From NCBI GenBank assembly GCA_001592145.1, contig BCWJ01000023.1:1-42542 (forward strand): a stretch of 42,542 nt of DNA, given 5' to 3'. The notes under the pieces were generated by a model. The model was not told the DNA's origin. It saw only the letters and a program-made list of their open reading frames with translations, and searched no databases. The translations under genes and the position numbers were made by a program. Positions 32,441 through 40,323 of this stretch are shown one piece after another. The stretch comes from Xylanimicrobium pachnodae JCM 13526 = NBRC 107786 (lineage in GTDB: Bacteria > Actinomycetota > Actinomycetes > Actinomycetales > Cellulomonadaceae). How positions within the stretch are numbered: position 1 is the stretch's first letter; the number at the start of each line of letters is the position of its first letter.

Positions 32441-32491
32441 TCGACGCCGTTCACGACGAGCCGGGGAGGCGCGCGCCACACGCCACCCGGT

Positions 32492-32506
32492 TGTGGTCAG
32501 ACCACA
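32492..32506. promoter_or_regulatory. Perfect 15-bp palindrome upstream of adhE
   Basis: TGTGGTC-A-GACCACA. The inner TGGTCAGACCA fits the general TNGTNNNACNA pattern of FadR-type GntR regulators (such as LldR and PdhR relatives). It directly abuts the Rex-type box, so two regulators may meet here. Confidence 0.5.
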
Positions 32507-32526
32507 CTTGTGAAAGTCTTCACAAG
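32507..32526. promoter_or_regulatory. Rex-type operator upstream of adhE
   Basis: CTTGTGAA-AGTC-TTCACAAG is a perfect 8-bp dyad with a 4-nt centre and equals the Rex consensus TTGTGAA-N4-TTCACAA. Rex represses fermentation and respiration genes until NADH builds up, and adhE is a classical target. The core TGTGA-N6-TCACA also fits a CRP/GlxR site, which I cannot exclude. It is 61 bp before the GTG of adhE, a normal place for repressor control. Confidence 0.75.
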
Positions 32527-32586
32527 ACGGAGACGACAAGAGGACGAGGGCCGGTCACGAGCCCCCACCCAGGAGGAGAAACACCC

Positions 32587-35307
32587 GTGAGCACTCCCAA
32601 GAAGCCGAAGCCTGCCGAGCAGGCCCCCGAGCAGGCCGTCGCCCACGACGCCGCCGCCGAGGTCAACGGCCTGGTGCAGCGAGGCCTCAAGGCTCTCGCG
32701 GCCTACGCCGACTTCACGCAGGAGCAGATCGACTACATCGTCAAGAAGGCGTCGATCGCCGCGTTGCACGCGCACGGCACCCTCGCCGCGCACGCCGTCG
32801 AGGAGACCGGCCGCGGCATCTTCGAGGACAAGGCCACCAAGAACATCTTCGCGTGCGAGCACGTCACGCACTCGATGGCCAAGATGAAGACCGTCGGCGT
32901 CATCGGCCGTGACGATCTTCGGGGCATCGTCGAGATCGCCGAGCCCGTGGGCGTCATCGCCGGCGTCACCCCGGTGACCAACCCGACGTCGACCGCGATC
33001 TTCAAGGCCCTCATGGCCATCAAGACGCGCAACCCGATCATCTTCGGCTTCCACCCGAGCGCCCAGCAGTGCTCGATCGCCGCCGCGAAGATCGTGCGCG
33101 ACGCCGCCATCGAGGCAGGAGCCCCCGCGGACTGCGTCCAGTGGATCGAGCACCCCTCGATCCAGGCGACCTCCGAGCTCATGAACCACCCGGGCGTCTC
33201 GCTCGTGCTCGCCACCGGCGGCAACGCGATGGTCCGCGCCGCGTACTCCACCGGCAAGCCCGCCCTCGGCGTGGGCGCCGGCAACGTCCCGGCCTACATC
33301 GCCAAGGACGCCAAGCTCGGCCGCGCCGTCAACGACATCGTCCTGTCCAAGGGCTTCGACAACGGCGTGGTGTGCGCCTCCGAGCAGGCTGCCATCATCG
33401 ACGCCGAGATCTACGACGAGGCGCTCGCGGAGTTCCGCCGCCTGCACGCCTACGTGGTCACCGCGGAGGAGAAGGCGAAGCTCGAGGAGTTCTTCTTCGG
33501 CGTCACCGCGATGTCCGAGAACTGCGCCGGGGCCAAGCTCAACGCGGCCGTCGTCGGCAAGTCGGCCGTCTGGCTGGCCGAGCAGGCCGGCTTCACCGTG
33601 CCCGCCGACACGTCGATCCTCCTCGCGGAGATCTCCGGCGTCGGCCCGCAGGAGCCGCTCTCGCGCGAGAAGCTCTCGCCGCTGCTGGCCGTGCTGCGCG
33701 CGAACAGCACCGAGGAGGGCATCCGCCTCTCCGAGCAGATGGTGGAGTTCGACGGTCTGGGCCACTCGGCCGCCATCCACACTCTCGACAAGGCGCTGTC
33801 CGAGGAGTTCGGCCGCCGCGTCAAGGCCGTGCGCATCCTGTGGAACCAGCCCTCGGCCCTCGGCGGCATCGGCGACATCTACAACGCGCTGATCCCGTCG
33901 CTCACCCTCGGCTGCGGCTCCTACGGTGCCAACTCGGTGTCGAACAACGTGTCGGCCGTCAACCTGATCAACGTCAAGCGCGTCGCGAGGCGGAACAACA
34001 ACATGCAGTGGTTCAAGGTCCCGCCCAAGACGTACTTCGAGCCGAACTCGATCCAGTACCTGGCCGACATGCGCGGCGTCGAGCGCGTCACCATCGTCAC
34101 CGACCGCGTCATGGCGTCGCCCGAGATCGGCATCGTCGACAAGGTGCTCGACGTGCTGCACCGCCGCGACAACAAGGTCGCCGTCCAGATCATCGACACC
34201 GTCGAGCCGGAGCCGAGCGTCGAGACCGTCGAGAAGGGCGCGCAGCTCATGCGCGACCACCGCCCCGACACGATCATCGCCATCGGCGGCGGATCGCCCA
34301 TGGACGCCTCGAAGGTCATGTGGCTCAAGTACGAGCACCCCGAGCTCGACTTCGCCGACCTGCGCGAGAAGTTCTTCGACGTGCGCAAGCGCGCCTTCCA
34401 GTACCCGACGCTCGGCAAGCTCGCCCAGCTCGTGTGCATCCCGACGTCGTCGGGTACGGGCGCCGAGGTCACGCCGTTCGCGGTCATCTCCGACCACAAG
34501 ACCGGCTACAAGTACCCGCTGGCCGACTACGCGCTGACCCCGTCGGTCGCGATCATCGACCCGGTGCTGACCGCGTCAATGCCTGCCAAGCTGGCCGTCG
34601 ACTCCGGCATGGACGCCCTGACGCACGCCACCGAGGCGTTCGTGAGCGTCTACGCCAACGACTTCACTGACGGCCTGGCGCTGCACGCCATCAAGCTCGT
34701 CTTCGAGAACATCGAGAAGTCGGCCCTGAACGGCGACACCGAGGCCCGTGAGCGGATGCACAACGCCGCGACGATCGCCGGCATGGCGTTCGGCAACGCG
34801 TTCCTGGGGATCGTGCACGCCATGTCGCACACGGTCGGCGCCACGCACGGACTGGTCCACGGCCGCACCAACGCCATGTTCCTGCCCTACGCGATCCGCT
34901 ACAACGGCCTGGTCCCGGGCAAGGTCACGGGCTGGCCCAAGGCGGAGAAGTACGTCGCCCCGGAGCGCTTCCAGGTGATCGCCAAGCACCTGGGCCTGCC
35001 GCACTCGACGCCGGAGGAGGCCGTGAACGCCTACGCCGACGCGTGCCGCGACCTGGCCACCCGCATCGGTGTCGAGCAGTCCTTCGCCGCGCAGGGCGTG
35101 TCCGAGCAGGAGTACATCGGCGGGCTCGACGCCCTGGCGATGCGCGCCTACGAGGACCAGTGCGCCCCGGCCAACCCGCGCCTGCCGATGCTCCAGGACA
35201 TGAAGGACATCATGGTGGCCGCCTTCTACGGCGTCACCCAGGCGGAGGTCGCCGCAAAGCGCACCGACGGTGTCGCATACCTCGACATGTTCTCGCCGAA
35301 GGGCTGA
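32587..35307 (+). CDS. adhE: Bifunctional acetaldehyde-CoA/alcohol dehydrogenase AdhE
   Basis: A 906-residue fusion. The N-terminal half (about 25-460) is a CoA-acylating aldehyde dehydrogenase with catalytic Cys263 in GFDNGVVCASEQA and LGVGAGNVPAYI. The C-terminal half (about 470-905) is an iron-dependent alcohol dehydrogenase with the NAD loop IAIGGGSPMDASK and metal site DALTHATEAF, GIVHAMSHTVGATHGLVHG. Together they reduce acetyl-CoA to ethanol with two NADH, restoring NAD+ when oxygen is short; AdhE forms helical filaments (spirosomes). The GTG start has AGGAGGAG 8 nt upstream. The leader carries a Rex-type box, and a 14-bp hairpin follows the stop. Codon use is highly biased, which suggests strong expression. 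Confidence 0.97.
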   Translation: MSTPKKPKPAEQAPEQAVAHDAAAEVNGLVQRGLKALAAYADFTQEQIDYIVKKASIAALHAHGTLAAHAVEETGRGIFEDKATKNIFACEHVTHSMAKMKTVGVIGRDDLRGIVEIAEPVGVIAGVTPVTNPTSTAIFKALMAIKTRNPIIFGFHPSAQQCSIAAAKIVRDAAIEAGAPADCVQWIEHPSIQATSELMNHPGVSLVLATGGNAMVRAAYSTGKPALGVGAGNVPAYIAKDAKLGRAVNDIVLSKGFDNGVVCASEQAAIIDAEIYDEALAEFRRLHAYVVTAEEKAKLEEFFFGVTAMSENCAGAKLNAAVVGKSAVWLAEQAGFTVPADTSILLAEISGVGPQEPLSREKLSPLLAVLRANSTEEGIRLSEQMVEFDGLGHSAAIHTLDKALSEEFGRRVKAVRILWNQPSALGGIGDIYNALIPSLTLGCGSYGANSVSNNVSAVNLINVKRVARRNNNMQWFKVPPKTYFEPNSIQYLADMRGVERVTIVTDRVMASPEIGIVDKVLDVLHRRDNKVAVQIIDTVEPEPSVETVEKGAQLMRDHRPDTIIAIGGGSPMDASKVMWLKYEHPELDFADLREKFFDVRKRAFQYPTLGKLAQLVCIPTSSGTGAEVTPFAVISDHKTGYKYPLADYALTPSVAIIDPVLTASMPAKLAVDSGMDALTHATEAFVSVYANDFTDGLALHAIKLVFENIEKSALNGDTEARERMHNAATIAGMAFGNAFLGIVHAMSHTVGATHGLVHGRTNAMFLPYAIRYNGLVPGKVTGWPKAEKYVAPERFQVIAKHLGLPHSTPEEAVNAYADACRDLATRIGVEQSFAAQGVSEQEYIGGLDALAMRAYEDQCAPANPRLPMLQDMKDIMVAAFYGVTQAEVAAKRTDGVAYLDMFSPKG

Positions 35308-35318
35308 GAGCACGTCGT

Positions 35319-35362
35319 CCACCTGGCGCCCCACCCACTCCTCCGGGCGGGGCGCCAGGTGG
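35319..35362 (+). terminator. adhE terminator hairpin
   Basis: A perfect 14-bp stem (CCACCTGGCGCCCC / GGGGCGCCAGGTGG) with a 16-nt loop, 12 nt past the adhE stop. No T-tract. Confidence 0.7.
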
Positions 35363-35500
35363 CACCCGGGCAGCAGCCCGGGTGCGCCCGCCCGGGGTCG
35401 TGGCCCCGCGGCGGGAGGGTGCCGGCGGGATCGTGGCCCCGCCCGCACCGCTCCGGCCGTCGGCCGGAGGACGCGTCCGGATCGTGGCCCGGACGCCGTC
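35363..35500 (+). ncRNA. Hairpin array with a conserved 8-nt loop (candidate structured RNA)
   Basis: Five hairpins follow the adhE terminator: 35363-35384 (CACCCGGG arms), 35393-35408, 35424-35443, 35451-35469 (CTCCGGCC arms, GTC loop) and 35473-35496. Those at 35393, 35424 and 35473 share the loop (G/A)TCGTGGC on different perfect stems: CGGG/CCCG, GGCGGG/CCCGCC and GCGTCCGG/CCGGACGC. A constant loop on changed but still paired stems is what a selected RNA fold looks like. The run ends at an intrinsic terminator. I see no promoter inside the gap, so this may be part of the adhE 3' UTR and not a separate gene. Confidence 0.5.
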
Positions 35501-35504
35501 GCCG

Positions 35505-35540
35505 AGGCCCGGCAGCGCTCAGCGCTGCCGGGCCTTTGTG
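35505..35540 (+). terminator. Strong intrinsic terminator
   Basis: A perfect 14-bp stem (AGGCCCGGCAGCGC / GCGCTGCCGGGCCT) with a TCA loop, followed by TTTGTG. This is the only terminator in the window with a partial T-tract, and it is oriented to stop plus-strand transcription coming through the hairpin array. Confidence 0.85.
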
Positions 35541-35588
35541 CATCCGCGCGGCTGTGGATAGCCCGCAGGTGAGCCGGTCCCGTTCGGA

Positions 35589-35594
35589 TAGCGT
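35589..35594 (+). promoter_or_regulatory. -10 box for the 740-residue lipoprotein gene
   Basis: TAGCGT about 41 nt before the ATG; the mRNA would have a leader with an ACGGAGA Shine-Dalgarno. It separates this gene from the hairpin array upstream. Confidence 0.4.
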
Positions 35595-35635
35595 GCCCGC
35601 GGCCGGGGCGCGTGCCCCCGGGGACGGAGAAGCAC

Positions 35636-40323
<4,688 letters not shown>

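Follow-up and report, generated by a model that had tools for sequence, protein, structure and literature searches.

The hairpins behind adhE

What is the run of hairpins that lies directly behind adhE in Xylanimicrobium pachnodae, and why should several of them present the same loop on different stems? The window, i.e. the whole stretch of 42,542 nucleotides analysed here, is one contig (C23) of a 4.0 Mb genome in 79 contigs. Its features at and around adhE are the following, all on the + strand.

32508..32525, +: palindrome TTGTGAAAGTCTTCACAA before adhE; similar palindromes occur in the adhE leaders of relatives
32572..32578, +: adhE ribosome-binding site GGAGGAG, a perfect complement of CUCCUCC in the first hairpin loop and kept in 7/7 array genomes
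32587..35307, +: adhE, bifunctional acetaldehyde-CoA/alcohol dehydrogenase of 906 aa (NF010378 at 1341.5 bits, cut-off 951; aldehyde dehydrogenase and Fe-ADH domains by Pfam), with its start at 32587 after GGAGGAG; its 3' UTR holds the hairpin array
35308..35540, +: whole structured region after the adhE stop codon, the proposed RNA element with predicted ends (fold z -9.94; conserved island; covariation)
35319..35362, +: first hairpin, 14-bp stem, with the exposed 8-nt loop ACTCCTCC at 35337-35344 (minimum-energy fold; the loop of relatives is RCTCCTCC or CCTCCTCC/TCTCCTCC, core CTCCTCC in 7/7)
35362..35385, +: H1, stem GCACCCGG/CCGGGTGC, loop GCAGCAGC at 35370-35377 (WTCGTGGC at the loop in 5/6 relatives; stem identical in 7/7)
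35387..35415, +: H2, loop GTCGTGGC at 35397-35404 (fold and loop motif; stem CGGG/CCCG, 4 bp)
35418..35449, +: H3, loop ATCGTGGC at 35430-35437 (model R1, 40.4 bits; stem GGCGGG/CCCGCC, 6 bp)
35451..35469, +: spacer hairpin CTCCGGCC-GTC-GGCCGGAG (minimum-energy fold; loop unconserved)
35470..35500, +: H4, loop ATCGTGGC at 35481-35488 (model R1, 37.6 bits; stem GCGTCCGG/CCGGACGC, 8 bp)
35501..35539, +: long final hairpin, probably the 3' end or a terminator whose T-run is weak (helix 8, in which both partners have changed in 6 of 14 pairs; not called by the strict terminator scan)

The initial annotation had described seven consecutive hairpins after adhE, and all seven are present in the minimum-energy fold of 35318-35540 (at 35320-35361, 35362-35385, 35387-35415, 35418-35449, 35451-35469, 35470-35500 and 35501-35539). 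The fold energy of 35308-35545 corresponds to z = -9.94, and none of 200 dinucleotide shuffles folds as low. It had also been proposed that three of the hairpins share an 8-nt loop, (G/A)TCGTGGC, on differing stems. The loop is indeed there three times, at 35397-35404, 35430-35437 and 35481-35488 on stems of 4, 6 and 8 bp; the first of these stems is short, however, and the energy minimum closes a smaller CGTG loop in its place. If the count is restricted to 8-nt loops whose stems have 5 bp or more, two window hairpins have the common loop, a number reached by 8 of 5000 shuffles (none reaches three). When both strands of the 42.5 kb were scanned in 4232 overlapping segments, 19 of these reached two same-loop hairpins, 18 of them overlapping the array locus and one lying elsewhere (39481, - strand). 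By itself the octamer RTCGTGGC is no rarity, the window having 17 copies for an expectation of 9.3, and ACTCCTCC occurs five times against 1.3 expected. The intrinsic terminator with a T-tract that had been placed at the end of the run proves to be weak: after the last hairpin come the letters TTTGTG, the six relatives lack the T-run and a strict terminator scan found no terminator at the array end. A sigma-70 consensus scan of 35200-35700 likewise gave no promoter-like site.

Ahead of adhE, positions 32491-32525 hold two palindromes, TTGTGGTCAGACCACA and TTGTGAAAGTCTTCACAA, both kept with changes in relatives. The former has the look of a GntR/FadR-type site and the latter (32508-32525) that of a Rex operator.

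Relatives with and without the array

The C-terminus of adhE was searched in the 11 genomes of the window's genus (g1) and in 200 genomes of the family, and the DNA behind adhE was read in the 12 closest genomes, namely all 11 of g1 and G027 of genus g18; the array genomes were found by way of adhE and not by a search for the array itself. The array lies behind adhE in seven of these 12 (the window's genome G000, G001, G002, G003, G006, G010 and G027), and there is none behind adhE in the other five g1 genomes (G004, G005, G007, G008 and G009). Its six array relatives, five of the same genus and one of another, have it at the same place. Conservation in close relatives, which the initial annotation had made the touchstone of its proposal, is thus what the comparison returned, with loops that are kept and stems that covary. 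In an adhE tree G027 branches first, followed by G001 together with G010, and the array-less genomes lie inside the clade (fork support 94/95); the array is therefore probably ancestral and was lost once or twice, the simplest split, with a single loss, having a support of 70/52. The array-less genomes are smaller in the assemblies used (1.5-2.5 Mb), four of the five being 65-79% complete and G007 93%.

The order of parts is common to the array genomes: a hairpin with an N-CTCCTCC loop, H1, a small hairpin (absent in the window), H2, H3, the spacer hairpin, H4 and the long last hairpin. At the H1-H4 loop positions of the seven genomes, 26 of 28 have NTCGTGGC; these 26 units were found by searching TCGTGGC, which makes the identity among them one of construction and the two exceptions, H1 of the window (GCAGCAGC) and H1 of G002 (GCCGTGGC), misses of that search. 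Since five of the six relatives have a fourth loop copy at the H1 position, the full form, as read from this alignment, is one of four same-loop hairpins, of which the window has lost the first loop. The first loop letter is A in 16, T in 9 and G in 1 of the 26 loops. The CTCCTCC loop of the first hairpin, an anti-Shine-Dalgarno motif, is kept in all seven array genomes.

By eye, the gene behind the array is ligA in 5/7 array genomes. It apparently follows the array directly in five relatives, another start lies behind the array in G003, and between the array and ligA the window encodes a protein of 740 aa (35636-37858; no Pfam or NCBIfam match) whose start resembles that of a lipoprotein. Because the gene behind it differs in this way, the array, to judge by gene order, travels with adhE and not with the downstream gene.

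Selection on the RNA structure

Among the hairpins of one genome, outer stem letters agree at 222 of 576 comparisons (38.5%). Over the whole array in seven genomes, both partners have changed in 17 of 81 pairs, whereas shuffles give 5.9 such pairs and slid versions 2-8. Further pair types stand out less in number (32 versus 28.7, with 19 of 500 shuffles reaching 32). For the 26 units, seven of ten pairs have both-side changes and the covariation score is 0.657 as against 0.183 in shuffles, much of this contrast being between H1, H2, H3 and H4 and not between species. The eight stem pairs of H1 never vary and no pair of H4 has changed on both sides, so that neither hairpin gives covariation evidence of its own.

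Pairwise identity per 30 columns is 0.57-0.88 in the array. It is 0.12-0.35 in the gap that separates the adhE stop codon from the first hairpin and 0.16-0.31 just beyond the last hairpin, from where it climbs again (0.67) near the next gene. By this measure the array stands out as a conserved island, with poor conservation on either side. At four-fold degenerate sites adhE stands at 0.75 overall and at 0.59 over its last 25 codons, with no special conservation towards its end, and this figure of 0.59, along with the unconserved gap before the first hairpin, disfavours a conserved promoter of the array's own; most simply, the array RNA would come from the adhE transcript. The suggestion made at the outset, that a repeated loop on changed stems reflects selection on RNA structure, is accordingly supported by the comparison of relatives in both its kept loops and its covarying stems.

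Occurrence elsewhere

The sequence SGGATCGTGGCCCS occurs twice in the window's genome, both times in the array. A search with model R1 found no second array in the seven array genomes, and its three next-best single matches (one each in G001, G010 and G000) lie inside open reading frames; membership of a repeat family was rejected on these grounds. At E <= 0.01, R1 matched 21 of 396 genomes of the order, and only the window's genome had two matches; the other six array genomes are not among these and are evidently outside the 396-genome sample. The DNA surrounding all 22 matches was inspected, and none of the 20 in other order genomes has two TCGTGGC within 100 bases. At least two TCGTGG within 250 bases after the adhE stop codon are found at exactly the seven known array loci among 125 adhE loci of the family. 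A two-loop pattern scan of named genomes gave at least 118 stretches; among the 80 of these that were tested (stems of at least 5 bp), the only array of this kind, L066, is the same array as that of G006. In viral contigs the loop search has one match, L338, which by eye looks like coding sequence. Within the sets searched, then, the array is found once per genome and only in this clade; the sets are samples or, for the named genomes, the 80 stretches tested, and distant copies may exist.

Two kinds of look-alike were noted along the way. Single strong hairpins with loops around TCGTGG occur in other families of the order (L042, L045 and L049) and look like intergenic terminators. On a contig of a marine deltaproteobacterial MAG (L138, near position 1-180, - strand), a 26-nt unit, GTGCGGATCGTGGCCCGCGGATCAGA, is repeated in tandem; every copy could fold into a short hairpin, always with the same loop, and the repeat is probably unrelated to the array.

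Comparison with known RNAs

The initial annotation knew of no described family with this loop, and the Rfam searches agree: Rfam 15 gave no match in the window over family gathering scores, and a permissive search of 35250-35620 gave mir-4433 (27.3 bits, 77 needed) and STnc310 (16.1 bits, 40 needed), both sub-threshold. Among the best matches in the literature on adhE or 3' UTR RNA, Xylanimonas RNA and the loop letters, there was no description of the array element. It is thus as an RNA family that the array has no Rfam match; as a design, repeated loops on variable stems are already known, one case being Rhodobacter RS0680a, which is also called CcsR. In the sRNAs SmelA075 and SmelA099 and in RS0680a, two to four hairpins have the same loop motif on stems of differing sequence, and the repeated rhizobial CCUCCUCCC loops on variable stems are proposed there to block ribosome sites (PMC3927594, section 2.7). 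Like these RNAs, the array has several hairpins with one common loop motif on variable stems, and its one CUCCUCC loop is also anti-Shine-Dalgarno. Unlike them, however, it repeats NUCGUGGC and has CUCCUCC once, whereas their common loop is CCUCCUCCC; the rhizobial sRNAs are also proteobacterial and present in several copies per genome, as opposed to one place behind adhE in actinobacteria. Another mark of these known RNAs is that they are small transcripts, processed and induced by stress. A second parallel is the icaR mRNA of Staphylococcus aureus, in which a C-rich 3' UTR motif pairs with the ribosome site of the same message and which the abstract does not describe as having repeated loops (PMC3868564). 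The 3' UTR motif of the array similarly complements the ribosome site of its own gene (CTCCTCC and GGAGGAG, 7/7); for icaR the pairing was shown by experiment, whereas here it is a matter of complementarity alone (7/7), with an unconvincing family-wide test.

ANTAR targets consist of two hairpins, joined by a linker of 2-25 nt, whose 6-nt loops have A in the first and G in the fourth position; such RNAs are reported across actinobacteria, with three ANTAR proteins and one predicted target RNA in Xylanimonas (PMC8164766). The array resembles them in having hairpins with conserved loops in actinobacteria and differs in that its loops are 8 nt and not 6 nt with A1 and G4; the idea of an ANTAR target was rejected, since besides their length the loops begin with A in only 16 of 26 cases. 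CsrB/RsmZ-type protein sponges show several equal loops on different hairpins, as the array does, and CsrA-type loops hold GGA. In the array, GGA is missing at the CsrA-type place in 10 of the 26 loops, and CsrA (PF02599) is absent from six of the seven array genomes (G027 has it), which disfavours a CsrA sponge. The actinobacterial 6C RNA has hairpins with C-rich open loops; the array has another loop, in another number and at another place, and no Rfam family matches it over the gathering score.

Candidate partners of the loops

For UCGUGGC, pairing with ribosomal RNA was rejected, as the 16S and 23S genes of G002 contain no CCACGA, the complement of the loop (one CCACGA of L339 lies outside the gene). 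The adhE leaders of the seven array genomes hold no conserved complement of UCGUGGC; by eye, an adhE leader hairpin with CACGA is present in 2/7, the window and G001 only.

CUCCUCC, the first loop, is the perfect complement of the adhE ribosome site GGAGGAG, and both are present in 7/7 array genomes. Among 125 adhE loci of the family, CTCCTCC occurs within 180 bases after the stop codon at one further locus, and seven adhE ribosome sites have GGAGGAG with no CTCCTCC behind the gene; within the array clade the pair offers no both-side changes to test. The first complementary pieces were seen in other genera, and 100 more adhE loci were then gathered to test 5'-3' pairing. Out of 127 loci given, two were skipped (short 3' ends) and 125 used; 14 more were dropped for doubtful start codons, leaving 111 in the permutation-length and energy tests. 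Own 5'-3' pairs have a mean length of 6.66 nt versus 6.28 (p = 0.09). At the 111 loci, a threshold of at least 7 nt gives p = 0.24 and one of at least 8 nt p = 0.02, the latter with a poor division into lineages, one of which holds 86 of the 111 loci, and 9 nt gives nothing. In duplex energy, own pairs lie at a mean percentile of 0.465 of swapped ones (111 loci), with G027 at 0.009 and the six g1 array genomes at 0.235, and the best duplexes listed for the clade are not at the CUCCUCC loop. Family-wide 5'-3' pairing is not convincing; we treat it as a hypothesis for the array clade and perhaps for genus g23.

In g23, UCCUCCAG of the adhE 3' UTR and CUGGAGGA within the ribosome site are complementary in 6/6 genomes, and GACCCGAGCG of the 3' UTR is a 10-nt complement of CGCUCGGGUC, just before the ribosome site, in 5/6 (in the sixth by eye). 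The six g23 loci (L218-L223) have an adhE leader hairpin GACCCG-GCCGCT-CGGGTC before the ribosome site and a 3' UTR hairpin GACCCG-AGCGGTA-CGGGTC, with equal stems, complementary loops and a 10-nt perfect complement. In G159 (L233, genus g20), CUCCCCUGGU of the 3' end is complementary to ACCAGGGGAG of the leader, and a 3' hairpin loop with CTCCCCTGGT is a 10-nt perfect complement of this ribosome-site stretch of the same adhE.

What the array may be

Our preferred reading, to which we give roughly even credence, is that the adhE mRNA of the Xylanimonas clade bears the array in its 3' UTR as a conserved, structured and multivalent regulatory RNA, one that shows the same loop repeatedly to one partner. 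The repeated UCGUGGC loops could instead be binding sites of a protein, either one that protects or tags the adhE mRNA or one for which this mRNA acts as a sponge, and we hold this as a tentative possibility, somewhat unlikely on present evidence. It would suit a loop that recurs on unrelated stems at several spacings, for which neither the adhE leaders nor the 16S and 23S genes of G002 yielded an RNA partner; moreover, ANTAR RNA-binding domains are encoded in 7/7 array genomes. These proteins are, however, also encoded in three of the five array-less g1 genomes and in both outside genomes searched, the loops do not follow the ANTAR rule (6-nt loops, A1, G4), and CsrA is confined to G027 among the seven.

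Quite unlikely, in our estimation, is a passive 3' end, in which a stable hairpin stack ends transcription and shields the adhE mRNA from 3' exonucleases, its loops being kept by slow change or common origin. The strength of the fold (z -9.94), the drop in conservation after the long last hairpin, an H1 stem that is identical in 7/7 although stems need only pair, and the single hairpins with similar loops, perhaps terminators, in other genomes would all be in keeping with this, but generic stability does not demand one loop on stems that are only 38.5% alike, and the flanks diverge freely. That there is no RNA function at all, the pattern being a repeat in coding sequence (GSWPR), a dispersed repeat or a chance product of GC-rich DNA, seems highly improbable. 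The window's three loops do lie in one frame of an open frame that reads GSWP three times, in a stretch where all three frames are open; within other genomes, however, the loop frames differ (0,2,0,2 in G027 and 1,1,1,2 in G001), which disfavours a coding repeat, the frames of the window and of G006 (1,1,1,1) happening to agree. The confinement of SGGATCGTGGCCCS to the array, the lack of a second array in seven genomes, and the conservation and covariation likewise argue against such an origin.

To return to the multivalent regulatory RNA, comparison supports the hairpins, their covariation, the kept loops, the one place per genome and the link to adhE. From these we infer an action through the loops, i.e. 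three to four spaced copies of UCGUGGC and one CUCCUCC as open 8-nt loops. Transcription through adhE would yield the array RNA, which would perhaps be cut out as a stable small RNA and would display the one motif together with the anti-Shine-Dalgarno motif. Several equal loops could allow cooperative binding of one kind of partner, or its titration, and the CUCCUCC loop could cover ribosome-binding sites, that of adhE first. Because the RNA would come with adhE, its dose would follow the fermentative state, with feedback on adhE or action on other mRNAs as the result. Pairing with RNA is somewhat ahead of protein binding within this reading; known RNAs of this design act by pairing (the rhizobial CCUCCUCCC loops, icaR).

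We regard the array as a probable regulatory RNA, so far undescribed, that would be produced along with the fermentation enzyme. A bolder version, which we consider unlikely, would assign it to a new class of regulatory RNAs coupled to fermentation. In this version the adhE mRNA would carry its own multivalent RNA, in which the UCGUGGC loops serve as a reusable code recognised by a partner and the CUCCUCC loop closes the adhE ribosome site; the message would thereby limit itself and tune other genes, and other genera, with g23 as the example, may keep the logic with other letters. To our knowledge, little is known of the regulatory RNAs of this part of the actinobacteria; here, the comparison of relatives lends good support to an array located at a central gene of fermentation. 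One loop on unrelated stems is a clean design whose partner can be searched for directly; such a search would put to the test the idea that repeated loops serve as a binding code in bacterial 3' UTRs.
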